Of a DNA stretch of 58,558 nucleotides, positions 1,548 to 43,023 are shown piece by piece (within the stretch, counting starts at the first letter, position 1; the number at the start of each line of letters is the position of its first letter). This DNA is from a virus: positions 1-58,558 of IMG/VR virus record IMGVR_UViG_3300010403_000180, one strand, 5' to 3'. The notes under the pieces are model-generated. The model had not been told where the DNA came from and made no database searches. It saw nothing but the letters and a program-made list of their open reading frames with translations. The translations under genes and the position numbers were made by a program.

Positions 1548-3827
1548 TTATGCGACAAAGTTGCAGCCCCTATTAAAGAATGCTGGTCGCTTCCTGTCAG
1601 CATCGCTGGCGGGAAAGTACGGAGCATACACCCAAGTGGGTGGGCTGTCTTTAATCATTCTAATTAACGTTTCGCCGACAACCATTGTGTCAAGCGTTAC
1701 TAAACTAATTCTATCAAGAGTTTGATTAAAGTGCAATTCTTCTGCAAACGTCATGGTGTCAATATCTTCTAGGTTTATGGTAATATCCAATACTTCACCC
1801 TCCTGTCTAAACACTCCAACCTTTTTGTTGGTGTCATCAATTTGCTTCATCAAAAATTCCACGATTCCAATCACTCGTGCCGTTGAACATTCTATTTTGT
1901 AATCCAGTCTTTCTGGGGTTTTGGTGGTCGTGATAACCTTGTTAATGGTGAAATCTTGGTTGAGCGTTCGTATATCCGATTGGATATTGATATGCTGACC
2001 AGAGCGTAAGCCATTTCTTGCTGTTTTGAATGTCGCCTTTTTAATCGGTAACGCATAATCGGTAAATTCCGCTTGGGCTCGCTGTCTTGCCGCTTCTTTG
2101 GTCTTAATTAACTTATCCACAACCACCCATTCATGTTCTCCGTAAGTTGCAACCGAAGCACTATTTTTTGCCTTTACCAATACCACTATCAATGGACTGC
2201 CTGTAACAACAACGTCTCCACTGCCTGGGGCAGAGTTAAATTTGATAACCTTTTCTTGGTAGTTCCACAAACAATCAAAACTTGTTGGGTCATCAATAAA
2301 GTCAACGCCAACAGTTTTTCCAACACCTCCAACGGTTACGGTAGGAGAAACATCATATCGGTATGGAAGTTTGAAGCTCTTAGTGGTTCCATCGCCCGTG
2401 CCAACCTTGTCGCTTCGGCTGTCGCCAACATACTCACCGCCTCGCACATAGACAATATTTCTAATTTGTTTATTGTCATCGTTCACTTCTAAACTGTTAA
2501 AAACATAGTTTCCGTTGGTGTCGGTTAGGTCAAACGGTGCAACCTCTCCCGTAGTCTTTGGGAAAAAATGAATGTCTTTGTTGTAATCAATGTACCAATC
2601 AAAGCCTATAAGTTCAGCAAGTTGCTGGATGCAATCAGATGGCTTTTTGTAGTTAAACAAAATATATTCTAGGGTAACTCCGCTGGCCTGCACGTTTGCC
2701 ACAGTAAATCCCGTGGTGTAGGTGGAAATAATATCGGTTACGATATCTTCCACAGCCATGCTTTCATAGGTATCAAAAACCAGCTTTCGGTTAAGCGTAT
2801 AAGTGTAATCAGAACATTCAACATCATAGCTGATGAGTTTTCCTCTAATGCTTTCGGTAACTTTGATAATCACTCCCGCAAAAATCTTTTCTCCGTGATA
2901 GTAAACAATGATTTCGCTCTCAATCCCTGGCTTCCAAATTCTGCCTTCGTAGCTCTTGGTGGTAAATTGCAGGTTATCAATTTGAGAGGTGATGATGTCT
3001 TCTTTTCTAAAAGAATCCCAATCAATGAAGTCAACTTTATCCACACCATCAACCATCACAATAAAAGCCTGCGACCCAGGCGAAGGGCTGGGGCTAATAG
3101 AAGGACTGACTGATGGTGATACTGATGGTGAAACAGAAGGGCTTACTGATGGACTTGCCGAGGGGCTAATAGATGGACTTCTTGATGCAGAGGGGGATTG
3201 GCTAGGAGATGAACTTGGTGAAACAGATGGCGATACCGAAGGAGAGCTAGAAGGAGAAACCGAGGGGCTAGCGGAGGGGCTTGCAGAAGGACTTTTTGAA
3301 GCGGAGGGAGAAGCGGAAGGGCTTGAACTGGGTGAGGAAGATGGCGAAGCTGAAGGGCTAATTGATGGAGATTTTGAAGCAGAAGGTGATAAAGAAGCTG
3401 ATGGTGATGCGGATGGGGAGGAAGATGGAGATGAAGAAGGGCTAACGGAAGCCGAAGGTGATGCGGAAGGGCTAGAACTTGGTGATATTGAAGGGGATTT
3501 TGATGGGGAAATTGATGCCGAGGGTGAGGCAGAGGGTGAGGAAGATGGCGAGACGGAGGCACTAGGCGAGGCGGAGGGACTTGATGAAGGAGAGACGGAG
3601 GCGGAGGGGGAGGCCGATGGTGAGGAGGAAGGAGAAACAGATGGTGAGCGTGAAGCGGAGGCCGCTCCAATAAAGTATTTTGGAATGGCTAAATTGTTCT
3701 GCTCAAACCACCAGCAAAGGTGGATAGGTTTCCAGTTTAATAGCGTTTCTTCTTTAACAAAAAGCGACAGAAGTTTGTGGCTCCAACTCGTCAGATTTTC
3801 TATTGTCTTTGCTAAAAAAGTTTTCAT
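1548..3827 (-). CDS. Tail hub/baseplate protein with N-terminal Ser-Pro repeat arm
   Basis: 759 residues, three parts. Residues 1-57 form a module with a hydrophobic/Trp-rich segment (KPIHLCWWFEQNNLAIPKYF, 33-52). Residues ~60-248 are a near-pure SPSxSPS repeat. Residues ~252-759 resemble siphovirus baseplate-hub or tail-endopeptidase proteins: a beta-rich start, then 'DIVTDIISTYTTGFTV', a 'LAELIGFDWYIDYN' segment typical of the gp27/Gp37-like hub fold, and 'TTKTPERLDYKIECS'. Its first bases overlap the stop of the upstream methyltransferase-like gene (ATGA), implying coupled translation. The N-terminal module and repeat type recur in the protein at 48180-51236. Hub identity rests on fold-like patterns and position after the tape measure; the repeat arm is directly visible. 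Confidence 0.8.
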   Translation of the reverse strand: MKTFLAKTIENLTSWSHKLLSLFVKEETLLNWKPIHLCWWFEQNNLAIPKYFIGAASASRSPSVSPSSSPSASPSASVSPSSSPSASPSASVSPSSSPSASPSASISPSKSPSISPSSSPSASPSASVSPSSSPSSSPSASPSASLSPSASKSPSISPSASPSSSPSSSPSASPSASKSPSASPSASPSVSPSSSPSVSPSVSPSSSPSQSPSASRSPSISPSASPSVSPSVSPSVSPSVSPSISPSPSPGSQAFIVMVDGVDKVDFIDWDSFRKEDIITSQIDNLQFTTKSYEGRIWKPGIESEIIVYYHGEKIFAGVIIKVTESIRGKLISYDVECSDYTYTLNRKLVFDTYESMAVEDIVTDIISTYTTGFTVANVQASGVTLEYILFNYKKPSDCIQQLAELIGFDWYIDYNKDIHFFPKTTGEVAPFDLTDTNGNYVFNSLEVNDDNKQIRNIVYVRGGEYVGDSRSDKVGTGDGTTKSFKLPYRYDVSPTVTVGGVGKTVGVDFIDDPTSFDCLWNYQEKVIKFNSAPGSGDVVVTGSPLIVVLVKAKNSASVATYGEHEWVVVDKLIKTKEAARQRAQAEFTDYALPIKKATFKTARNGLRSGQHINIQSDIRTLNQDFTINKVITTTKTPERLDYKIECSTARVIGIVEFLMKQIDDTNKKVGVFRQEGEVLDITINLEDIDTMTFAEELHFNQTLDRISLVTLDTMVVGETLIRMIKDSPPTWVYAPYFPASDADRKRPAFFNRGCNFVA

Positions 3828-4342
3828 TTAAGTAAGGGTTCTGGGATAATTTCTCTCGTTCCAAAATAATAAATTCGGTTTGAAAGTCGGTTGGGTTTGT
3901 TTGAGCCATATCGGATAAATCTTTTTCGGTATGCAGAAACATCGGCATCATCAATGGTGTTTAAGATTATGTAGTTGCAGATTTTTCCTACGGCTTTGGC
4001 AAACTCATCGGTCAAAACAAATTCGCACATTCTTCCATCAAACAAATCTACAATGCAAACGTCAAAGTGTCCGCAATGTTTTATATATTCTCGTGCATCC
4101 TGCTGAATAAATTCTACTCCGAATTGTTCCTGGCATGGCTTAATATCCACTGCGGTTATTGGGACGGCTCCATAAATAAGTCGTGTGAGTCCTGCCACGG
4201 TTCCACCTGCAAATCCCAAAATGAGTACACTCTCTGGCTTAAACTGTGGCACCATATAAATCCAAACTCCGTTCGTCAGATAAGCAGTCGGTGGATTCAC
4301 GGAGTCTATTAAGCCTTCCGAGTTTCTCATTTTTTCAATCAT
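3824..4342 (-). CDS. Spermidine-synthase-like SAM-binding-fold protein (copy 1)
   Basis: 172 residues. Residues ~38-60 (SVLILGFAGGTVAGLTRLIY) form the glycine loop of a class I Rossmann fold. ITAVDIKP follows as the acidic strand-2 motif, then a VDLFDG segment resembling the catalytic region of spermidine-synthase-type enzymes. At 172 residues it lacks the N-terminal beta domain of true SpeE (about 280), so polyamine synthesis is unlikely. It overlaps the tape measure gene upstream and the Ser-Pro repeat hub gene downstream by four bases each. A paralogue at 51224-51763 has the same partner arrangement, suggesting it acts on or with the Ser-Pro repeat virion protein. Substrate unknown. Confidence 0.75.
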   Translation of the reverse strand: MIEKMRNSEGLIDSVNPPTAYLTNGVWIYMVPQFKPESVLILGFAGGTVAGLTRLIYGAVPITAVDIKPCQEQFGVEFIQQDAREYIKHCGHFDVCIVDLFDGRMCEFVLTDEFAKAVGKICNYIILNTIDDADVSAYRKRFIRYGSNKPNRLSNRIYYFGTREIIPEPLLK

Positions 4343-6372
4343 ACCCGTATGTTCAGTTTTAATTTATCAATAATCATGTCGCCGATTTCTTCGGCAACAC
4401 TGCGGTCAAGGTAGGTTCCACCGTTAATGTTGACCACAATTCCTCCACCTCCTGCCAAAGCACCTGGATTTTGCATAGCAATAATAAAGTCCTTCGGGTC
4501 GGTGCTCACAATATGACCGCCTTGAACCACTCCGTCCTTGATTCCAAGGCTACTTTTAACACTGCTAACTGCCCCTCCAACGGCTCCGCCGATGTATTGG
4601 GCTGCTTTCTGCCCCCACTCATAAACCCTTTGAAAGGCGTTGGCTACGGCGTTTATAGCGTCTGCAAAGGCTTTAATCTGGGCACTGGCTTGTTGCACAA
4701 TGAAGTTCACCACTTGGGTTATGAGGGTCAGCACCCTTGCCAAGGTATCAAGCATGATACCAAGAATGCTTACCACTAACACGAATGCCCCATAGAGAGC
4801 CGCTCCGAAAACAATCACCAAAGGTTGGGCTGCTTTCCAAAGTTCCAGCAAGCTCGGTAAGAGTTGCGTGGCAATAGTGTTCCAAAGGTTCTTTAAAGCT
4901 GGGAAAAGTTTAGTGGAGAGGTCTTGCCACAGTTGGTTGAAAATCGGGGTAACAAAGGTAGCCAAGGTTTCCCACAGTGCCATTAAGACTGGCATAATAT
5001 TGGTGCTGAAATAATTATAGAGTTCGGTGGCTATGCCCATCAGACTTTTTACGGTGTCAATGAAAAATTCAAACGCATGGCGTAGGTCAGTCATTACTCC
5101 CTGTAAGAATTGCAATATATCAATCTTTGAAAACTCGGTCAGAAGGTCTTGCCAGTTTATATGCAGTTGGGAAACAATCGCTGCAAGACCAATCGCTACT
5201 GCAATAATAATTCCAATCGGCCCCGATAGAGCAACGAATCCTGCAATAATCGGACCAATTATTAAACCAAGCGTACCAACCGCTGCAACCACTCCCGATA
5301 CTGCCAAAGCCACCAGAATAATGTTTCTGGTGAGTTCTGGGTTGGCATTTATCCATTCCGTAATTTTTAAGATGACGGGGGCGATTGAGTTAAGCAGGCT
5401 TGAAATAACTGGGATAAAAGAATCACCAATCGCCTGTTTTAAGTTATTAAAAGTTTCTTTTAAGACAAGCAGTTGCACTTCCAAGGTGTTTTTTACGGCT
5501 TCTGCCCTGCCTCCTACGAGCTCTTGCACCTTTGCAAAAATCTCGGCTGCGGAAGCACCGTCTTCAAGCTTAATTCCGTATGCCGTTAAAATCCTCGCTT
5601 GTCCTGCGAGGGCTTTTGAAAGGCTGGTGGCCGCTTCTTCAAGGGTGATATTTTTTGCCCGTGCCAAGTCCATTGCCAAAGAAGTATCAGTGATAGATTT
5701 CTTTACATCACCCGTAACTTGGAAAAACTTTGACATGGCAACCGCCGCAGTCTCATCGTCAAATCCTAATTGCACCGCTGCTTTTGAAGCACTAATAAAA
5801 GCGTCCCTCGCTTTGTTTAATTCCTCTTGGGTTATTTTTATCGTCTTGGTAATCCCAATGGTCTTGGTATCTACCGCCCCAAGCTTACTTCCGTATTCCT
5901 GTATTTTTAAGTTAAGCCCCTCAATTTGGTTTCTGGTTGAGGCAACTTGGATAGCGTAATCAGCTTGTGATATTTTTCCCTTTGAAAGCTGGTTGTTAAG
6001 GTCTATGAGGTTTTGTTGCTTATCTCTGATGGCAATGCTAGCGGCTTGAATCTCATTCTTCATTTTCGCCGCTTCCACGCCTGTGATTTTCAGACTGCTA
6101 CTGGTAAGGGTTAATCCCGTTGCCACTTCAATCGCCCTTCCTTTCATAGAACTTAGGGCTGCGTCAAAGTTCGCCATTTTTAGTTGAGCATCAGCGGCCT
6201 CTTTAACACTCAATACTAAGCCTGCTGAAATCGCACCAAAAGCGGCAGTGCCAGCTATTGCCATGCCTTCAAATGCGGGTTTCATATCAGTCAGCGTTCC
6301 GCTAATTCTCTTAGCTACCGATGAAACCTCGTCCGTCATCCTTGCGATAATGTCTATGTATTGATTAGCCAT
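4339..6372 (-). CDS. Tail tape measure protein
   Basis: 677 residues. It is Ala/Ile-rich with long helical stretches and hydrophobic segments (about residues 350-400 and 515-550), and ends in a Gly-rich region before a short C-terminal tail. The sequence resembles TP901-type tape measures: an initial 'EVSSVAKRISGTL' coiled region, a central 'AAVAMSKFFQVTGDV' and 'LAGQARILTAYGIKLED' block, then membrane-active helices. Such proteins set tail length and may help DNA cross the membrane. The start overlaps the -1 frame chaperone extension by eight bases, the normal tail order. Length implies a moderately short tail, if the usual length relation holds. Confidence 0.92.
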   Translation of the reverse strand: MANQYIDIIARMTDEVSSVAKRISGTLTDMKPAFEGMAIAGTAAFGAISAGLVLSVKEAADAQLKMANFDAALSSMKGRAIEVATGLTLTSSSLKITGVEAAKMKNEIQAASIAIRDKQQNLIDLNNQLSKGKISQADYAIQVASTRNQIEGLNLKIQEYGSKLGAVDTKTIGITKTIKITQEELNKARDAFISASKAAVQLGFDDETAAVAMSKFFQVTGDVKKSITDTSLAMDLARAKNITLEEAATSLSKALAGQARILTAYGIKLEDGASAAEIFAKVQELVGGRAEAVKNTLEVQLLVLKETFNNLKQAIGDSFIPVISSLLNSIAPVILKITEWINANPELTRNIILVALAVSGVVAAVGTLGLIIGPIIAGFVALSGPIGIIIAVAIGLAAIVSQLHINWQDLLTEFSKIDILQFLQGVMTDLRHAFEFFIDTVKSLMGIATELYNYFSTNIMPVLMALWETLATFVTPIFNQLWQDLSTKLFPALKNLWNTIATQLLPSLLELWKAAQPLVIVFGAALYGAFVLVVSILGIMLDTLARVLTLITQVVNFIVQQASAQIKAFADAINAVANAFQRVYEWGQKAAQYIGGAVGGAVSSVKSSLGIKDGVVQGGHIVSTDPKDFIIAMQNPGALAGGGGIVVNINGGTYLDRSVAEEIGDMIIDKLKLNIRV

Positions 6373-6897
6373 CGTGGTTTGATTTATTCTTCTTATTTTG
6401 GAAAGCAGCTTCGGTGTTCCTCATTATCAGGATGCATTCAATAAACCAAGTTGGCTGGGAAAGATATTGTTGGTATGTCCATCCCATTTCACGGCAAATG
6501 GTAACTATCTTCATTTCTTCCGTGGCAGCACCACTTCCCGTTTGTAGAACATAGGCATAATCGTTAGCTACTTCGTTTTTTTTTCCTCTAAGTTGGTGAT
6601 TTGCTTTACCTCGTCAAGAACAATTTTGAATTCTTCTGCTCTTAATTCAAGCAAAGCATCAAGCACGTTCTCTGCTTTGCCGTCAACTGATACCACCACC
6701 TGTGAGACCTGCTGATTTTCAATTTCGTCTACCACCTCGGCTGGAAAGGCATCAATTTTCGGTATTGATTCATTCATGTCAACCTTGACATATTTCATCA
6801 TTACGTTTCTGATAGCCCTATCCTCTTTAACATTCAGATAGGTTTTAAGCACTATCGTATGTTCCCCCGCCTTAATTTGTTTCGTTTCCCGTTCCAT
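6365..6897 (-). CDS. Tail assembly chaperone, long form (G-T-type) by -1 frameshift
   Basis: After the zero-frame codons ending Glu-Glu-Lys-Lys there is a run of nine A residues on the coding strand (bases 6584-6576). Slipping back one base there bypasses the TAG at 6568-6570 and opens a further ~68 codons ending at TAA 6367-6365. The extension reads NEVANDYAYVLQTGSG at its start and contains SQPTWFIECILIMRNTEAAF. That is the expected pattern of T-type chaperone extensions, which bind the tape measure. The extended frame overlaps the tape measure start by eight bases. Frameshifting itself is inferred from the homopolymer, the continuity of the -1 frame and the conserved arrangement in tailed phages. 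Confidence 0.85.
6568..6897 (-). CDS. Tail assembly chaperone, short form (G-type)
   Basis: 109 residues, the zero-frame product that stops at TAG just after the A9 slippery run. It has a short beta-rich N-terminus (KAGEHTIVLKTYLNVKEDRA) and a helical C-terminus ending NLEEKKTK. It lies between the major tail protein and the tape measure, where lambda gpG equivalents are found. Such proteins coat the tape measure during tail assembly and are not kept in the virion. No Shine-Dalgarno is evident before ATG 6897; the region before it is A/C-rich. Confidence 0.85.
   Translation of the reverse strand: MERETKQIKAGEHTIVLKTYLNVKEDRAIRNVMMKYVKVDMNESIPKIDAFPAEVVDEIENQQVSQVVVSVDGKAENVLDALLELRAEEFKIVLDEVKQITNLEEKKTK
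6576..6584 (-). promoter_or_regulatory. A9 slippery site for -1 ribosomal frameshift
   Basis: Nine consecutive T on the plus strand, i.e. A9 on the coding strand, six bases before the zero-frame stop. It joins the 109-residue frame to a conserved-looking -1 frame extension. No strong downstream hairpin is obvious; the homopolymer alone may be sufficient. Confidence 0.8.
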
Positions 6898-34556: not shown

Positions 34557-34980
34557 CCTTTTGAAGTTTAGTTAATTTTGACCTTGGAACGATATACAAG
34601 TCTACATTTTTTCCATAGACGGGTCTTACAGGAAATGTCTGCACCATGGCCGACCTGATATAATATTTCGTTTCAGCATCTTTCCCGAATGAAACCCAGA
34701 CAATTATGCCTTTGCTCGCCAATGCGTCAATGCGGTCTTTGTGAAGTCCAATTCCCCAATCGTCCTTTGCCCATCCGTACTCTACCCAGGCACCGTAATA
34801 AGGTTCGTGAATGTGGAAATAGTTTGCATCCTTCTCTCTGATATCAATATTTTTAAGTGGCTTATCACGTTTTGTTCCGCACTTTCCACATTGCCAGTAA
34901 ATTTTCCTGATGCTCCGCTTTACTTCGTAAAAGTAAGGCTCTTTGCAGAATGGACATGTATGCTCATTTTGGTTTTCCAT
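34525..34980 (-). CDS. Zinc-ribbon protein with unknown C-terminal domain
   Basis: 151 residues. EHTCPFCKEPYFYEV and YWQCGKCGTKRDKPLK give two CxxC pairs. The rest (ANYFHIHEPYYGAWVEYGWA and DRIDALASKGIIVWVSFGKD) is beta-rich without a known motif. It overlaps the NinB-like gene by 17 bases and the nuclease gene by 32 bases. Confidence 0.62.
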   Translation of the reverse strand: MENQNEHTCPFCKEPYFYEVKRSIRKIYWQCGKCGTKRDKPLKNIDIREKDANYFHIHEPYYGAWVEYGWAKDDWGIGLHKDRIDALASKGIIVWVSFGKDAETKYYIRSAMVQTFPVRPVYGKNVDLYIVPRSKLTKLQKDVHSEVPKQI

Positions 34981-35344
34981 GTTGTTCTTCGTCCTCCTTA
35001 ATTCTAATTTGAAAAAGTAGTTCTTCTAGTGAAGGAAACGGCACCGTGAATCCCCAGTTTTCAGAAACGAACTTGTTGACCGCATCGTACACCTGCTCAA
35101 TTTCTTCCAGCTTTAATAGGTCTTTGGTGCTACGCTTGCCAAGCATCTGTTCCTGTACTGCCCGCCAGATGTATTCTTTCATTCCGTACTTTGTGGCTGG
35201 TGCGTCAAAGGTGGCTTTTGAAAGGATAACTTTCATTCCAATCCCCTCCTCGTTAAACGCTTTCGCAAGCTTCGTAAAATACAGATGCAGTGCTTTGTTC
35301 TGTTGGCGGGTTCTCTTTTGAATTTCTTTTTCTTCTTGGTTCAT
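34964..35344 (-). CDS. NinB-like recombination protein
   Basis: 126 residues. QQNKALHLYFTKLAKAFNEE near the start, and 'KEYIWRAVQEQMLGKRSTKD' in the middle, followed by VPFPSLEELLFQ, match NinB (Orf family): 'RQNKALHLYF..LA..ln..Gid.....', then 'STt.L...ei..vyd..n.f'. NinB binds ssDNA and supports Red-type recombination. Consistent with the nearby Bet and nuclease genes. The 5-base-periodic tract lies immediately upstream. Confidence 0.82.
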   Translation of the reverse strand: MNQEEKEIQKRTRQQNKALHLYFTKLAKAFNEEGIGMKVILSKATFDAPATKYGMKEYIWRAVQEQMLGKRSTKDLLKLEEIEQVYDAVNKFVSENWGFTVPFPSLEELLFQIRIKEDEEQHGKPK

Positions 35345-35355
35345 GATTTGAAAAA

Positions 35356-35954
35356 ATAGCTTAGCCTAACATATCTCATCAGAGCGGTTCTTAACGTAAC
35401 CCGACAAAGCACGTCATATCCCGACTGAACCCATTATAGGATTTTTACATCCTATGCGAAGCCACCATGGGTGGCTCGTGCACAGAAGATAACGCAACAT
35501 AACAAAACGTAACGATTCCCGACCTAACCCAACAGAACAAATGCCAACTCGTCAAAACACAACACCGCTCATCCCGACATAACTCAACGTATATAGGATT
35601 TACATCCTATGCAAGAAACATATAAATGTTCCTCGCATAAAAAGTAAAATAACGAAACGGAACATGGCTTACCTTAACCCACTCTATCGCATCCGAACTC
35701 AACTTAACAAAACATATCGCACTAGGGTTTTTACCCTATCCCAATTCCCCTTAAAGAGAATTAGGGATAAAGCAGAACCTACCTCATCTCAACCAGTCCC
35801 TTCCCGTCATAACTCAACACGGTATAGCCTAGCTTAATCCTAATAGGACTTACGCCCTACCCCAATCTGCCGTAAAGCAGATTCGGGGCAAAGCACAACA
35901 ATTCTCGGCTGAACTCAACTCAACATAACTTGACAAGACTCAACGCAACGTATC
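35356..35954. repeat. Non-coding tract of five-base-periodic repeats split by hairpins
   Basis: The plus strand can be cut into pentamers ending in C in five blocks: 35356-35430 (15 units), 35489-35588 (20, one exception), 35649-35718 (14, one exception), 35769-35833 (13, one exception) and 35885-35954 (14). About 73 of 76 have C at position 5, and position 4 is usually A; on the minus strand the unit is GTTNN. Hairpins lie between blocks: ATAGGAT-TTTTAC-ATCCTAT (35435-35455), GCCACC/GGTGGC (35461-35475), ATAGGAT/ATCCTAT (35592-35610), TAGGGT/ACCCTA (35722-35739), and an AATCTGC/GCAGATT stem near 35865-35883. No ORF uses the tract; codon periodicity would be three. It may be an origin, centromere or RNA element. 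Confidence 0.85.
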
Positions 35955-35965
35955 CAAGAAAATTA

Positions 35966-36214
35966 CTACTTCACCTCTCTAATCGTTTTTATTTTGTCAG
36001 CCACGCCAGTCAATCTAAAATATCCAGTCTTGGTATGAAATGCCTTTATGTAGGCGTTCAAGAATCCGAGAGTCAGTTTCATATTCCTTGCTCTTTCATC
36101 ATCCATGGGCATTCTTGAATATGCATCGGCCGATACAATAATTGCATCAAGCAAATCCTTTGCTGGCACAACTAGGTCAAACTCTTTTAATGAACCAAAT
36201 GTTTCTTTTGCCAT
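35966..36214 (-). CDS. Unknown small protein
   Basis: 82 residues, helical (VVPAKDLLDAIIVSADAYSR, later RNMKLTLGFLNAYIKAFHTK), ending with a short beta (GYFRLTGVADKIKTIREVK). One base after the RAMP-like gene and just before the repeat tract. No family recognised. Confidence 0.7.
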   Translation of the reverse strand: MAKETFGSLKEFDLVVPAKDLLDAIIVSADAYSRMPMDDERARNMKLTLGFLNAYIKAFHTKTGYFRLTGVADKIKTIREVK

Positions 36215-36215
36215 G

Positions 36216-36746
36216 TTACTTTACAACTTTAAATTCTTTAACCTCAAACCGACCGTACCTTGGTCTCTTGTCTCCAATGCCGCAGTAGAGACCAGCATAC
36301 TCTAAGGCTTCTTTTACAACACGCTCTCCAATTCTATCGTCAATGACATCAATCTGAAAGGTGGCTTCCCACTTATCAAACCTTGGTCTTGCCCTCATAA
36401 TTCTAGCCCTTCCAACAACCTCTGGCTGTCTATCAATTTCGTACTTTGGGTACTTGTGCGGGATTAGTAATTGGTTGATGAATATCCCCCCCTTGAAAGC
36501 ATCCTTGTAGGTCTTTTTGCCTTCAAACTTGAAGTTCACAGAAGACTTAATCATGGCCGCTTCAAAGTGCTTTGCGGGAATACAGTTTTCCCCTTTCTCG
36601 TTTTTATACAATGCTGCTTCCGCATCTTTTTTCGCATCGTAATTCTTCTCTTTAAATTTCGTCCCGCCTTCTGGGTGCTGTTCATCTGGGAACCTGTGCT
36701 GTAATAATGGTGCAACTCCTACTACCGTCGCTTTAATTTTTAACAT
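36216..36746 (-). CDS. RAMP-like fold candidate protein
   Basis: 176 residues. KATVVGVAPLLQHRFPDEQH starts with a beta strand. 'IPAKHFEAAMIKSSVNFKFE' and 'QPEVVGRARIMRARPRFDKW' have the basic strands of a family recurrent in phages. 'AGLYCGIGDKRPRYGRFEVK' resembles the G-rich loop near the C-terminus of RAMP (Cas-like) RNA-binding domains. No HD or CRISPR neighbour exists. I suggest a single-RAMP-fold nucleic acid-binding role; confidence in fold is low, in a real gene high. Confidence 0.75.
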   Translation of the reverse strand: MLKIKATVVGVAPLLQHRFPDEQHPEGGTKFKEKNYDAKKDAEAALYKNEKGENCIPAKHFEAAMIKSSVNFKFEGKKTYKDAFKGGIFINQLLIPHKYPKYEIDRQPEVVGRARIMRARPRFDKWEATFQIDVIDDRIGERVVKEALEYAGLYCGIGDKRPRYGRFEVKEFKVVK

Positions 36747-38281: not shown

Positions 38282-39196
38282 TTATTGTGTCTTCTCTTTA
38301 AAATCTCCTTCTTGAATAATTGGTATCTCGTCTCCCTTCGGTTTGCTTAGCTCGGCAATCCTCGCATCGGCCAATCTGATAAACTCATCCTTCTGCTCCT
38401 TAGTGTACTTTTCTGATTTGAGCATTTTTTCCTTGTACTCTTTCAGTTGTTCCAGTGGCATCTTTGCAATAGAGTTCACTAAGTTCACAAAGTTCATCTG
38501 GTTCTTTTCGGCATCGGTGTTTTCTTCTGCACCACGTTCCATCTCCTCTGGCACATAGATACCGCTTAGAAGGGCTGGAAATGCCTTACGCAAAGCCAAA
38601 GCCTCGGCACACTTACCAAGCATCAAGAATGGTCTAACGTGCCACTGGAAGGCCAATCTACCGCCTGGGTAGTATTCGCTCCATCGGGCGGTGGCTGTGA
38701 ATGGATATCGCACCCCTTCCACAATCTTGTAAACTGTAACGGTGGCTTTGTTTGGTGCAGTAACGGTTTTCTTATCTTTCTTTTCCCCAACGGTATATTC
38801 AATCACTTGCTCTCCATCAAATACAGCGTCATCATTCCCTGCGTACTTTCCCGTCTTCTCTGCGGTTGCTCGGAAGCCGTCAATGCCAACTTGGATTTGC
38901 CGCACGTCTTTTCCAAGTTTGCTGTCCCATCTTGGAACCAAGTGAACCTGCTTTGAGAATGGGCTAAGCTGTAATCCGTGGCAGACAGAGATAAAGAGTT
39001 TCAGTTCGTCATCGTTTGCTCCCTTGGCAATCGTTCTTTTAATGAGCTCCACTTGGGCTCGGTTCAGTTTGCCGAATGCGTCATGCGGTGCAATCTCTCG
39101 GTTTTCAATGATGCGTTCAATTACCTTCACTTCTTTTTCCTCTGCCTTGGTTGGTTCAACTTTCTCAACCTCCTTTTTAGTTTTTTCTTTTACCAT
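38282..39196 (-). CDS. bet: Bet-like single-strand annealing recombinase
   Basis: 304 residues. 'NDDELKLFISVCHGLQLSPF' and 'QVHLVPRWDSKLGKDVRQIQ', then VGIDGFRATAEKTGKYAGND, are diagnostic of phage recombination protein Bet. 'YYPGGRLAFQWHVRPFLMLG' and 'CAEALALRKAFPALLSGIYV' complete it. N-terminal ~35 residues are a charged extension. It follows the coiled-coil gene at 39201 by four bases and partners the adjacent nuclease. Confidence 0.93.
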   Translation of the reverse strand: MVKEKTKKEVEKVEPTKAEEKEVKVIERIIENREIAPHDAFGKLNRAQVELIKRTIAKGANDDELKLFISVCHGLQLSPFSKQVHLVPRWDSKLGKDVRQIQVGIDGFRATAEKTGKYAGNDDAVFDGEQVIEYTVGEKKDKKTVTAPNKATVTVYKIVEGVRYPFTATARWSEYYPGGRLAFQWHVRPFLMLGKCAEALALRKAFPALLSGIYVPEEMERGAEENTDAEKNQMNFVNLVNSIAKMPLEQLKEYKEKMLKSEKYTKEQKDEFIRLADARIAELSKPKGDEIPIIQEGDFKEKTQ

Positions 39197-39200
39197 AGGT

Positions 39201-39797
39201 TTATATTTTTACGTTCGCCATGGTTTCTTCTTCCCATGCTCTAACACCAGGAATTTCCTTGTTAGCTTGCACGGCTTTCCAAATGGCACCCATGTTAGGT
39301 TCAAGGTACTCCCTAGGAAGGAGAGAAACATCAACGACTTCGTACTTTTTAACTTTTCTTACTTGCAGTCCGCCAGATTCGGTTCTGACCGTGTTATCCA
39401 CACGTTCAATTTTTTCAACCCTTTTCTCCGCCGTTTCAACTTTCTTAATCTTTCCAGCTTCTAAGTCTGATGCAATCTTGGCTTCTGCTTTGGCCGCATC
39501 TTCTCTGACCTTTTGATGGTAGGCGAGTGCCTTGCCATTCACTATTTGCTGTGCCTTTTCATAGGCTTCCTCCATGGGCTTAAATAAAGCACGGACGCTT
39601 TTGAGAGTGTTGTTCAGAGGCTTCGTGATAGACTCTTTTTTTTCAGTTAATTTAGAGCTAATATCTTCAAGCTGTGAACTAATCTCTGTTGCTTTTTTTA
39701 AGTCGTCCTCGGTCTTTATTTCTAATGCTAGTGCCTGTTCTTCAAGCACGCTGATTCTCCCTTGAAATTCCGCTACCTCCTTTTTTTCTATTTCCAT
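39201..39797 (-). CDS. Coiled-coil protein of the recombination operon
   Basis: 198 residues. Residues ~1-130 are long coiled coil (ATEISSQLEDISSKLTEKKE, VREDAAKAEAKIASDLEAGK). The C-terminus (KKYEVVDVSLLPREYLEPNM, IPGVRAWEEETMANVKI) is a typical end of proteins found next to phage recombinases. Could aid annealing. Function unassigned. Confidence 0.8.
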   Translation of the reverse strand: MEIEKKEVAEFQGRISVLEEQALALEIKTEDDLKKATEISSQLEDISSKLTEKKESITKPLNNTLKSVRALFKPMEEAYEKAQQIVNGKALAYHQKVREDAAKAEAKIASDLEAGKIKKVETAEKRVEKIERVDNTVRTESGGLQVRKVKKYEVVDVSLLPREYLEPNMGAIWKAVQANKEIPGVRAWEEETMANVKI

Positions 39798-40052: not shown

Positions 40053-40256
40053 CTACTTATCCACAGCCCCGTGTCTCGTATATTTCCGCTTCTTTACTCC
40101 TCTTGCCTTGCATTCTTTGTAATAAATTTCTTTCACTCTCCATTCAGAAAGGTTAAACATCGTGGCTAGGGTTTTGAAAGTGGTCTTGATTTCCTTGTCC
40201 TGTTTCAGCAGGAAAATCTTTTGGTTGCGTTCGCTTTTTGTTGGTGTTATTTCCAT
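40053..40256 (-). CDS. Small HTH-like DNA-binding protein
   Basis: 67 residues. TFKTLATMFNLSEWRVKEIY has a helix-turn-helix spacing, followed by a basic C-terminus (CKARGVKKRKYTRHG). It overlaps the methyltransferase start by 10 bases. Its end carries the DnaA box of the next promoter. Possible regulator. Confidence 0.65.
   Translation of the reverse strand: MEITPTKSERNQKIFLLKQDKEIKTTFKTLATMFNLSEWRVKEIYYKECKARGVKKRKYTRHGAVDK
40057..40065 (+). promoter_or_regulatory. DnaA box
   Basis: Exact 9-mer TTATCCACA on the plus strand, nine bases upstream of the -35 at 40042-40047. The same 9-mer precedes two other promoters. Confidence 0.6.
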
Positions 40257-41239
40257 AGTAGTCTTTTTATTATTTCACTTATTACATTGACCGTAACAGC
40301 ATTTCCCAAACATTTATAGCGTTGGGTTTCGCTGATTCCCGAAGTCCAGTCATCTGGGAATCCTTGTAAACGTTCACACTCTTTTGGCGTTAATCTTCTG
40401 ATTCCAAATCCCTGCATTACCCCTCCCGTATTTAATCCATCAACAGTAAAACTATAATCTCCTTGATAATTTCTCTGGTTCCTGTTTAAAAATTTAAGTG
40501 GCACTGCTATCACTGGCTGACCACTTCCGTCTTCTCTCGCCCGTGCGGGTAACGTTGGTGCGTTTCCGCTTTTTACTTCTCTGAATCCTTGTCCGTCTTT
40601 GTGGGTTCTAAGGGTGCCGATGTGCGTCCTTTGGCCGTGGTTGTCAATACCTTTGTAATAGTTGCAGTCAATCGTGTTACTGATATTTTTTTGGTTATCT
40701 TCTTCATGGTCTCCGCTGAAAGGAAATATTTGTCGTCTGGGTTTTCCTCTAAGATATCCGACAATAAACACTCTTTCCCGATTCTGCGGGACTCCGAAAT
40801 TCTTGCTGTTAAGCACACTCCATTCACAATCATACCCCAGTTCATCAAGGGTGCTGACGATTGTCGCAAAGGTATTACCTTTGTCGTGGTTAAGGAGTCC
40901 TTTAACGTTTTCAAGAAGTAGATACGAAGGTCTTTTCCTTTCAATGATTCTTGCGATGTCAAAAAATAAAGTGCCTCGTGTATCTTTGAATCCTCCCCGC
41001 TTTCCAGCAACGCTGAAACTTTGGCAAGGAAATCCGCCCACGAGAAGGTCAAAGTTTGGGAGTTCGTCGGGAATAATTGTGGTTGCATCTCCATAGTTTT
41101 TGTAGTGGGGAAAGTGTTTCTCAAAGATTTGAATGGCGTACTTATCTACCTCTGAATATCCAATGCACGTTCCCCTGTCGCCAATACCCAGTTCAAACCC
41201 GCCAATCCCCGTGAACATGCTGAAATATTTAACTTCCAT
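40247..41239 (-). CDS. DNA (cytosine-5) methyltransferase
   Basis: 330 residues from ATG 41239. SMFTGIGGFELGIGDRGTCI is motif I, 'LVGGFPCQSFSVAGKRGGFK' motif IV with catalytic Cys, 'LLENVKGLLNHDKG' motif VI, 'NFGVPQNRERVFIVGYLRGK' motif VIII, and 'RYKCLGNAVTVNV' motifs IX-X. The target region (about 160-270) is not identifiable. Without a restriction enzyme gene nearby it is probably an orphan methyltransferase that protects phage DNA. Confidence 0.95.
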   Translation of the reverse strand: MEVKYFSMFTGIGGFELGIGDRGTCIGYSEVDKYAIQIFEKHFPHYKNYGDATTIIPDELPNFDLLVGGFPCQSFSVAGKRGGFKDTRGTLFFDIARIIERKRPSYLLLENVKGLLNHDKGNTFATIVSTLDELGYDCEWSVLNSKNFGVPQNRERVFIVGYLRGKPRRQIFPFSGDHEEDNQKNISNTIDCNYYKGIDNHGQRTHIGTLRTHKDGQGFREVKSGNAPTLPARAREDGSGQPVIAVPLKFLNRNQRNYQGDYSFTVDGLNTGGVMQGFGIRRLTPKECERLQGFPDDWTSGISETQRYKCLGNAVTVNVISEIIKRLLWK

Positions 41240-41657
41240 CACCAAGTAAAAATTTATTGTCTAGCATTTTGTCGTAAATCGTTTGACCTTTTGAATCGGT
41301 GGCAAAGGGAAGAAACACCTGCGGAAGTTCTACAATAGTGGTTTCATAGAGTGCCATCTGTGCTAAAACCCAGTCCCGAATGTTTCTCCATGCTACCCTA
41401 TAAACATAATCTTCCTCGTCCCACCTTCTTACTTCCTGCTTTTTTAACACCTCTTGGAAGTTACGCCAGTTCACTGGCAATGAGAATGAAACCAACCTTT
41501 CGTTGACCTGTAATCTGAATGCCAAAGCTTGAATCCTACCTGTGCCTTTCTCGTACTGATACATCACTCCAACGGCACCGTTTTTAACAAGGGCATTTTG
41601 AATTTCTTCTATGCTTCGGCTGGCTGGCACTACGGTTGTATAGTTTTTAATTGGCAT
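41229..41657 (-). CDS. Conserved phage protein, unknown
   Basis: 142 residues. PIKNYTTVVPASRSIEEIQN is a start seen in many phages, followed by GRIQALAFRLQVNERLVSFS and then 'RVAWRNIRDWVLAQMALYET' and LPQVFLPFATDSKGQTIYD. Recurrent in early regions; no function known. Overlaps both neighbours. Confidence 0.85.
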   Translation of the reverse strand: MPIKNYTTVVPASRSIEEIQNALVKNGAVGVMYQYEKGTGRIQALAFRLQVNERLVSFSLPVNWRNFQEVLKKQEVRRWDEEDYVYRVAWRNIRDWVLAQMALYETTIVELPQVFLPFATDSKGQTIYDKMLDNKFLLGDGS

Positions 41658-42297: not shown

Positions 42298-43023
42298 TCA
42301 GAACAGTTTTACTCTGTTCTCTATCGCATTGTGATGGTTGTAAATCTTTTCAAGCTGTCGCATGTATTCTTCCACATACGGCGAGTCTTTTAAGAACTTG
42401 TCCTTAAAGAGAACAAATTTATCAATCATCTGCCCATGATTATACTGCGGGTTAGTCGCAATGCGTTTGAAGGCAAGTGCGAAAACCCTAGTATCTCCAC
42501 GAGCGTAGTACCTTTTAATATCATCTAGTTGTTTGGCAAGTCGGTGAGCCAGTTTTAAGTCTCCCACCACAAACTTTCCTTTTCGGAACGTCGCTGTCGT
42601 GGCACCACTATTATTCATTCTTGAAGTTAGAATCATCAGCAAGACCATGTGGGTAAGGTGGTAAGTGTTCTTGAATTCAAGATAAATCTTGTAGTTTTCA
42701 TTTCCAAGTTCCGCAAAAGACCTTGCATAATCAGAGGGTGCCCAACTCTTGGTTGATGAATTTATTCTTTGAACGTCTTCAAGTTTTAGCCCGTCAACCT
42801 GGTAAAACCAAATTGGCAATCCAAGCTGTTTTAAGGCTGCGAATCTATGTTGCCCGTCAACGATTTCCATTTTGTCGTTTACTGTTATGGGAACAGCCGA
42901 AGCTATATCAGGATGTTCATTAAAGCTGTCGTAAAGTTTTTTTACTTGTGCTTTGTTGATAGTCCTGTTCCCTTCAATCCTTTTGAAAGAGGAATAATCC
43001 TCTGTTTGTTGGATTTTATTCAT
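42298..43023 (-). CDS. ParB-like nuclease/sulfiredoxin-fold protein
   Basis: 241 residues. 'EHPDIASAVPITVNDKMEIV' then DGQHRFAALKQLGLPIWFYQ is the ParB/Srx GQHR motif at ~56-60. The C-terminal two-thirds is helical with 'ATTATFRKGKFVVGDLKLAH' and 'DKFVLFKDKFLKDSPYVEEY'. Such phage ParB-like proteins may act as nucleases, NTP-binding switches or regulators. It is flanked by near-perfect inverted 25-mers, which could be its binding sites. Confidence 0.82.
   Translation of the reverse strand: MNKIQQTEDYSSFKRIEGNRTINKAQVKKLYDSFNEHPDIASAVPITVNDKMEIVDGQHRFAALKQLGLPIWFYQVDGLKLEDVQRINSSTKSWAPSDYARSFAELGNENYKIYLEFKNTYHLTHMVLLMILTSRMNNSGATTATFRKGKFVVGDLKLAHRLAKQLDDIKRYYARGDTRVFALAFKRIATNPQYNHGQMIDKFVLFKDKFLKDSPYVEEYMRQLEKIYNHHNAIENRVKLF

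Follow-up and report, generated by a model that had tools for sequence, protein, structure and literature searches.

An intergenic array of pentamer blocks in a phage genome read as five VIPR guide RNAs, one of which decodes to a methyltransferase motif of other phages

The described system closest to the locus presented here is VIPR (Viral Interference Programmable Repeat), introduced in a 2026 preprint with examples from SUSP1 and a P. fulva prophage (PMC13142463; PDB 36pp); a literature search on VIPR returned nothing besides this source. The system combines a single RAMP protein, built from an RRM core with a Gly-rich loop and a thumb, with guide RNAs (vrRNAs) made of alternating GGY and NN and closed by a structured 3' tail, and all types are stated to use GGY/NN "or a related consensus" (PMC13142463). 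The NN pairs read double-stranded DNA, one base being skipped per pair, usually the codon wobble position (PMC13142463). The systems occur mainly in phages, satellites and prophages supply most of their natural targets, and in the locus vipr and vap stand beside the intergenic vrRNAs (PMC13142463).

The DNA analysed here (the window) is a 58,558-base IMG/VR virus record with its main genes on the minus strand; genes for a portal, a terminase and a tape measure mark it as a tailed phage. A non-coding, intergenic tract of about 600 bases lies between a 126-aa ORF (34964-35344), which as a query found no relatives, and an 82-aa ORF (35966-36214). We read this tract, with a probability of about 0.95, as an array of five vrRNAs. 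Our own data consist of the arrays, the tails, the protein family and its fold, the association of the arrays with the gene, and the target to which guide D decodes. The features of the locus are as follows.

36216..36746, minus strand: vipr gene, 176 aa, RAMP/Cas7-like by profile and predicted fold, C-terminal Gly-rich loop (GIGDKRPRYGRF), phrog_4652
35966..36214, minus strand: 82-aa ORF between vipr and array, candidate accessory (vap) gene, role proposed from position only
35890..35949, minus strand: vrRNA A pentamer tract, 12 units, from the unit parse
35842..35889, minus strand: vrRNA A 3' tail, two hairpins, -25.9 kcal/mol, z -4.8
35769..35833, minus strand: vrRNA B pentamer tract, 13 units, from the unit parse
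35720..35768, minus strand: vrRNA B 3' tail, two hairpins, -20.9 kcal/mol, z -3.3 (folded 35720-35770)
35639..35718, minus strand: vrRNA C pentamer tract, 16 units, from the unit parse
35592..35638, minus strand: vrRNA C 3' tail, two hairpins, -21.6 kcal/mol, z -6.8 (folded 35592-35640)
35484..35588, minus strand: vrRNA D pentamer tract, 21 units, of which units 3-19 correspond to a DNA N6/N4-methyltransferase motif (GDVVFDGFLGSGSTLIA) by the L336 match and PF01555
35435..35483, minus strand: vrRNA D 3' tail, two hairpins, -21.9 kcal/mol, z -4.6 (folded 35435-35484)
35356..35430, minus strand: vrRNA E pentamer tract, 15 units, from the unit parse, followed by a T-run (minus strand) in place of a hairpin tail

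Across 35356-35954 the autocorrelation of plus-strand C was 0.338, 0.336, 0.295 and 0.274 at lags 5, 10, 15 and 20 (z = 8.3, 8.1, 7.3 and 6.4, respectively), and none of 2000 dinucleotide-preserving shuffles was as high as the tract at any of these lags. The tract gives the strongest lag-5 signal of the whole window, and no other part comes close. These values bear out the five-base period claimed in an earlier sequence-only reading of this DNA. That reading had counted about 76 pentamers in five blocks, some 73 of which have C as their last plus-strand base; our parse of the minus strand agrees, with 77 units in blocks of 12, 13, 16, 21 and 15. Position 1 of the unit is G in 71 of the 77 and position 3 a pyrimidine in 72, with T preferred at position 2 (45/77). 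The description of the units as mostly AC holds for 45 of them. The triplet conforms to GNY in 66 units and to GTY in 42, giving a core order of G-[T>A>C]-Y, whereas positions 4 and 5 are under little constraint (0.15 and 0.11 bits); the tract contains 45 distinct units.

The hairpins reported between the blocks were also found again, as four double hairpins that separate the blocks. Blocks A to D each end in two adjacent hairpins, similar in shape and partly different in sequence, and each of the four pairs folds far better than its own shuffles (z from -3.3 to -6.8); a MAFFT alignment of the tails did not bring the stem arms of C and D into register. Blocks B and D have GTTGA-GTTAT in common near the start, and blocks A and B have GCTTT at the end. 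Rfam contained no family for the tract.

The gene at 36216-36746 is, as judged from profile comparison and a structural model, a Vipr protein, RAMP/Cas7-like with a Gly-rich loop. Its product alone matched PDB 36pp, "SUSP1 Vipr protein", with an E value of 2.4e-9, and the family profile did so at 4.4e-29. When the AF2 model (mean pLDDT 93, pTM 0.88) was compared using Foldseek, the best matches were Csm-complex (Csm3-type) and Cas7-11 RAMP subunits, with E values down to 1.8e-6. The family is diverse (mean column identity 23%) with an invariant C-terminal Gly-rich loop, GhGxxRP..GRF, and 36 of 37 members match phrog_4652. In a tree of 37 Vipr proteins, 15 form one supported clade with mostly NAC triplets (gene strand); proteins of the GGT and GTN types fall outside it, and the deep branches have no firm order. 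In the isolated-phage collection a Vipr homologue is present in 157 records, and the annotated matches listed are mostly called "hypothetical protein". Such homologues were found in Felixounavirus, Mycobacterium, Gordonia and other phages, and the one in OR003939 carries the annotation "helix-turn-helix transcriptional regulator".

By analogy with the described system, the array would be transcribed from the minus strand, after vipr and the candidate vap. Each vrRNA would consist of successive GTY-NN pentamers, or GNY-NN in a looser description, and four of the vrRNAs would have a double-hairpin 3' tail. One Vipr subunit per pentamer is expected, with the three conserved bases gripped by the protein and presumably unpaired. 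The two free bases would pair with target DNA, one target base being skipped between pairs, and this skipped base would be the codon wobble position. Expression, RNP formation, DNA binding and repression are inferred from the preprint (PMC13142463). The sequence-only reading had suggested a five-nucleotide protein footprint on single-stranded RNA, or the target of a multimeric phage protein. This came close, since the partner is a RAMP/Cas7-like Vipr and the transcript would be a guide RNA, but it missed that the free bases are a message.

The locus resembles VIPR in its small, single RAMP with a Gly-rich loop, in being carried by a phage and having a target in another phage, in its intergenic vrRNAs of tandem pentamers with three fixed and two free bases and a structured 3' tail (four of the five window blocks), and in the one-base-skip reading with the wobble base skipped, for which guide D is the window case. 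It differs in its GTY/GNY core, the published one being GGY (base 2 differs), in the double hairpin where a pseudoknot is described for the SUSP1 clade, in an 82-aa candidate vap that matches no named vap, and in the length of guide D, 21 units (17 effective) against the 9-16 reported. The backbone fold and an RNA guide with bases unpaired at regular steps are shared with Class 1 CRISPR-Cas (Csm3/Cas7 backbone). The locus, however, has no repeat-spacer array and one RAMP only, and its guide message is non-contiguous; an identical-repeat array was not found at the tract, nor a cas family among the scanned ORFs, and near the tract no further gene of cas type was recognized. The earlier remark that no named phage element has this form has been superseded by the 2026 preprint (PMC13142463).

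When viral contigs were scanned for (ACNNN)x8, at least 120 contigs matched. Rich arrays (14 or more units, of 8 or more kinds) were present in 32 of the 120 (ACNNN)x8 contigs listed, as compared with 2 of the 120 (AGNNN)x8 contigs listed. Each array contig keeps a triplet of its own, which on the AC strand is GAC, AAC, CAC, ACC, ACA or ACG, and leaves the other two bases free. With few exceptions the arrays of a contig occupy one region and one strand. In several contigs the spacers between blocks are near-identical and the free bases of the blocks wholly different. As to the relatives of the tract that the sequence-only reading had looked to, arrays of this kind are common in viral contigs, with other letters, but the DNA itself had no meaningful match by similarity in the isolated-phage collection.

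Of 41 array contigs, counting the window, 38 carry exactly one Vipr homologue, as against none of 5 control contigs; the array contigs without one were G011 and G029, both covered in part, and G036. The array usually lies tens of bases from vipr, and the two are nearly always adjacent. In the nearest relative, L338, which encodes a Vipr 66% identical to that of the window, vipr is followed by an 89-aa homologue (55% identical) of the 82-aa ORF and then by pentamer blocks with hairpin tails, the NN letters of which differ from those of the window. The 82-aa ORF itself lies 1 base from vipr and matched no family, and among the collected loci L338 alone has a homologue. On the reverse strand of L208, at about 3250-3950, AGYNN units occur with a constant AGTTATATCCCAAC-like spacer, and the contig has a Vipr homologue; this is the only rich AG-type array among the matches listed.

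Phage primases start primers at 5'-GTN, that of T4 using GTT to make pppACNNN pentamers and that of T7 using GTC. The tract could accordingly be a primase recognition-site array or lagging-strand origin, the ACNNN repeats representing head-to-tail primers, and both the excess of AC/GT over AG in the matched scans (32 against 2 of 120 listed contigs) and the agreement of the period with the T4 primer length speak for it. We rejected this reading, which we regard as very improbable: a T7-type primase zinc ribbon was found in none of 40 array contigs, the L208 array uses AGYNN, the arrays track the Vipr gene, and the NN letters spell a readable message, as seen from the decoded target of guide D.

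The VIPR reading allows the guides to be decoded, with NN taken as codon bases 1 and 2 and one target base skipped between pairs. Guide D then gives [ED]-[IM]-G-[ED]-V-V-[FL]-[ED]-G-[FL]-L-G-[SR]-G-S-T-[FL]-[IM]-A-[IM]-L, a 21-mer in which a DNA methylase motif is recognized (Pfam PF01555, E 7e-4). A search pattern of ten units, or 20 fixed bases, for which about 0.5 chance matches are expected in the 257-billion-base genome collection, was found in 19 IMG/VR contigs and in a single genome contig, a number owed in part to the methylase motif being conserved. Of these 20 matches, 19 have enough flanking sequence for a full reading, and each of the 19 falls inside a methyltransferase ORF; the remaining one (L323) lies at the edge of its contig. 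With a skip of two bases the pattern had no match in viral contigs.

The genome contig, L336, comes from an assembly of Candidatus Omnitrophota; in it units 3-19 match without a gap, that is 17 consecutive units and 34 of 34 bases. Of these, 14 lay outside the search pattern, and the absence of mismatches was confirmed in that genome. The target ORF has, by eye, a ParB-like start and a methyltransferase end, and the contig also has a terminase-like ORF with a small ORF upstream (by eye). Because it carries both the terminase-like and the ParB-methyltransferase ORF, we consider L336 to be phage DNA. The target points to phages of Omnitrophota or neighbours. The unmatched units of guide D are the first two and the last two; since blocks B and D share their starts and blocks A and B their ends, block ends are probably fixed and outside the guide. 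The window's own methyltransferase (40247-41245, cytosine-C5 type by eye) contains no match to guide D, and the phage's own gene is therefore not hit by this guide. Because guide D is directed against the ParB-DNA-methyltransferase gene of other phages, silencing of a rival phage is its likely job, and the array is probably a weapon of one phage against its rivals.

For all five guides a sense-direction reading as codon positions 1-2 gives the best fit, with +16.0 bits summed against +4.3 for the next best frame and strand, which suggests that the other guides were also copied from coding sequence. Guide C had a single 9-unit match in viral contigs, at chance level, and one match with 3 mismatches in 285 Omnitrophota genomes; guide E had no match in either set. 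When 164 array blocks (window included) were decoded and compared with about 4 Mb of collected loci, guide D and one partial match of L063 were obtained, the guide D target loci in this set having been gathered via guide D's own code. Only guide D, one of the five, has a convincing target, the collection scans having covered C, D and E.

TRAP sites are NAGNN elements with a period of 5 and 3+2 spacing. The tract shares with them a triplet and a two-base spacer on RNA, and a RAMP-like partner is at hand, as would suit a plain array bound by a multimeric ring or filament of an RNA-binding protein, serving as a regulator or decoy with no message. Against this, the NN letters of guide D reproduce 34 of 34 bases of a gene with a one-base skip, and the NN of all five blocks carry codon-position 1-2 statistics. 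The window also differs from TRAP sites in that its spacer bases carry a message and its several blocks are tailed; no TRAP-like protein was seen, nor a TRAP homologue among the scanned genes. We give such an array hardly any chance. Slighter still is the chance that the tract acts as DNA, serving as an origin of replication, a centromere or a site of packaging, with its 5-bp units as direct repeats and its hairpins as cruciforms: the tract is intergenic and the window has ParB-like and RecT-like genes, but the hairpins stand at the 3' end of blocks, as expected of RNA tails, the arrays of relatives adjoin vipr in either array orientation, and parS, iteron and cos sites are not known to have half-turn spacing. 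The origin, segregation, packaging, Rho-loading and half-helical-turn readings offered earlier gain no support.

The VIPR reading makes the window an independent case of a non-contiguous RNA code, found from raw sequence alone, in which computation suffices to read the target of one guide. The case lends support to the rule of a one-base skip at the wobble position beyond the GGY systems tested in the preprint (PMC13142463), as well as to the claim of a VIPR role in phage-phage conflict. We suggest, tentatively, that the window VIPR belongs to an undescribed lineage in which GTY/GNY-core vrRNAs carry double hairpins as tails, the 82-aa ORF encodes a new accessory protein, and the guides are directed against the methyltransferase genes of rivals. 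Taken jointly with the other loci, the same doubtful proposal would have the triplet changed repeatedly (GGT, GTY, GTG, CGT, TGT, AGY), with the 3+2 layout fixed and probably the skip rule as well. Because lineages differ in their fixed triplet, many VIPR loci would escape a search for GGY, and the difference matters for engineering too.

Several further observations concern the surroundings of the locus and single arrays elsewhere. Upstream of the locus, on the same strand, the window encodes a RecT-like annealing protein (38282-39196), an exonuclease (39201-39797), the cytosine-type DNA methyltransferase (40247-41245) and a ParB-like protein (42298-43023). In L044 (850-1280) the AACNN blocks are separated by an element resembling a tRNA 3' half (GGTTCGATTCCTGC...), present in three copies. 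The Vipr proteins of L024 and L107 are identical, and their GACNN blocks have a near-identical 35-base spacer between them. In L063, on which no vipr was found, a 24-unit array of the ACG/ACA type (6268-6339 and 6535-6654) lies among tail genes; once decoded, the guide agrees with the adjoining tail gene in 15 of its 24 units, as though directed at the form of that gene in a rival.
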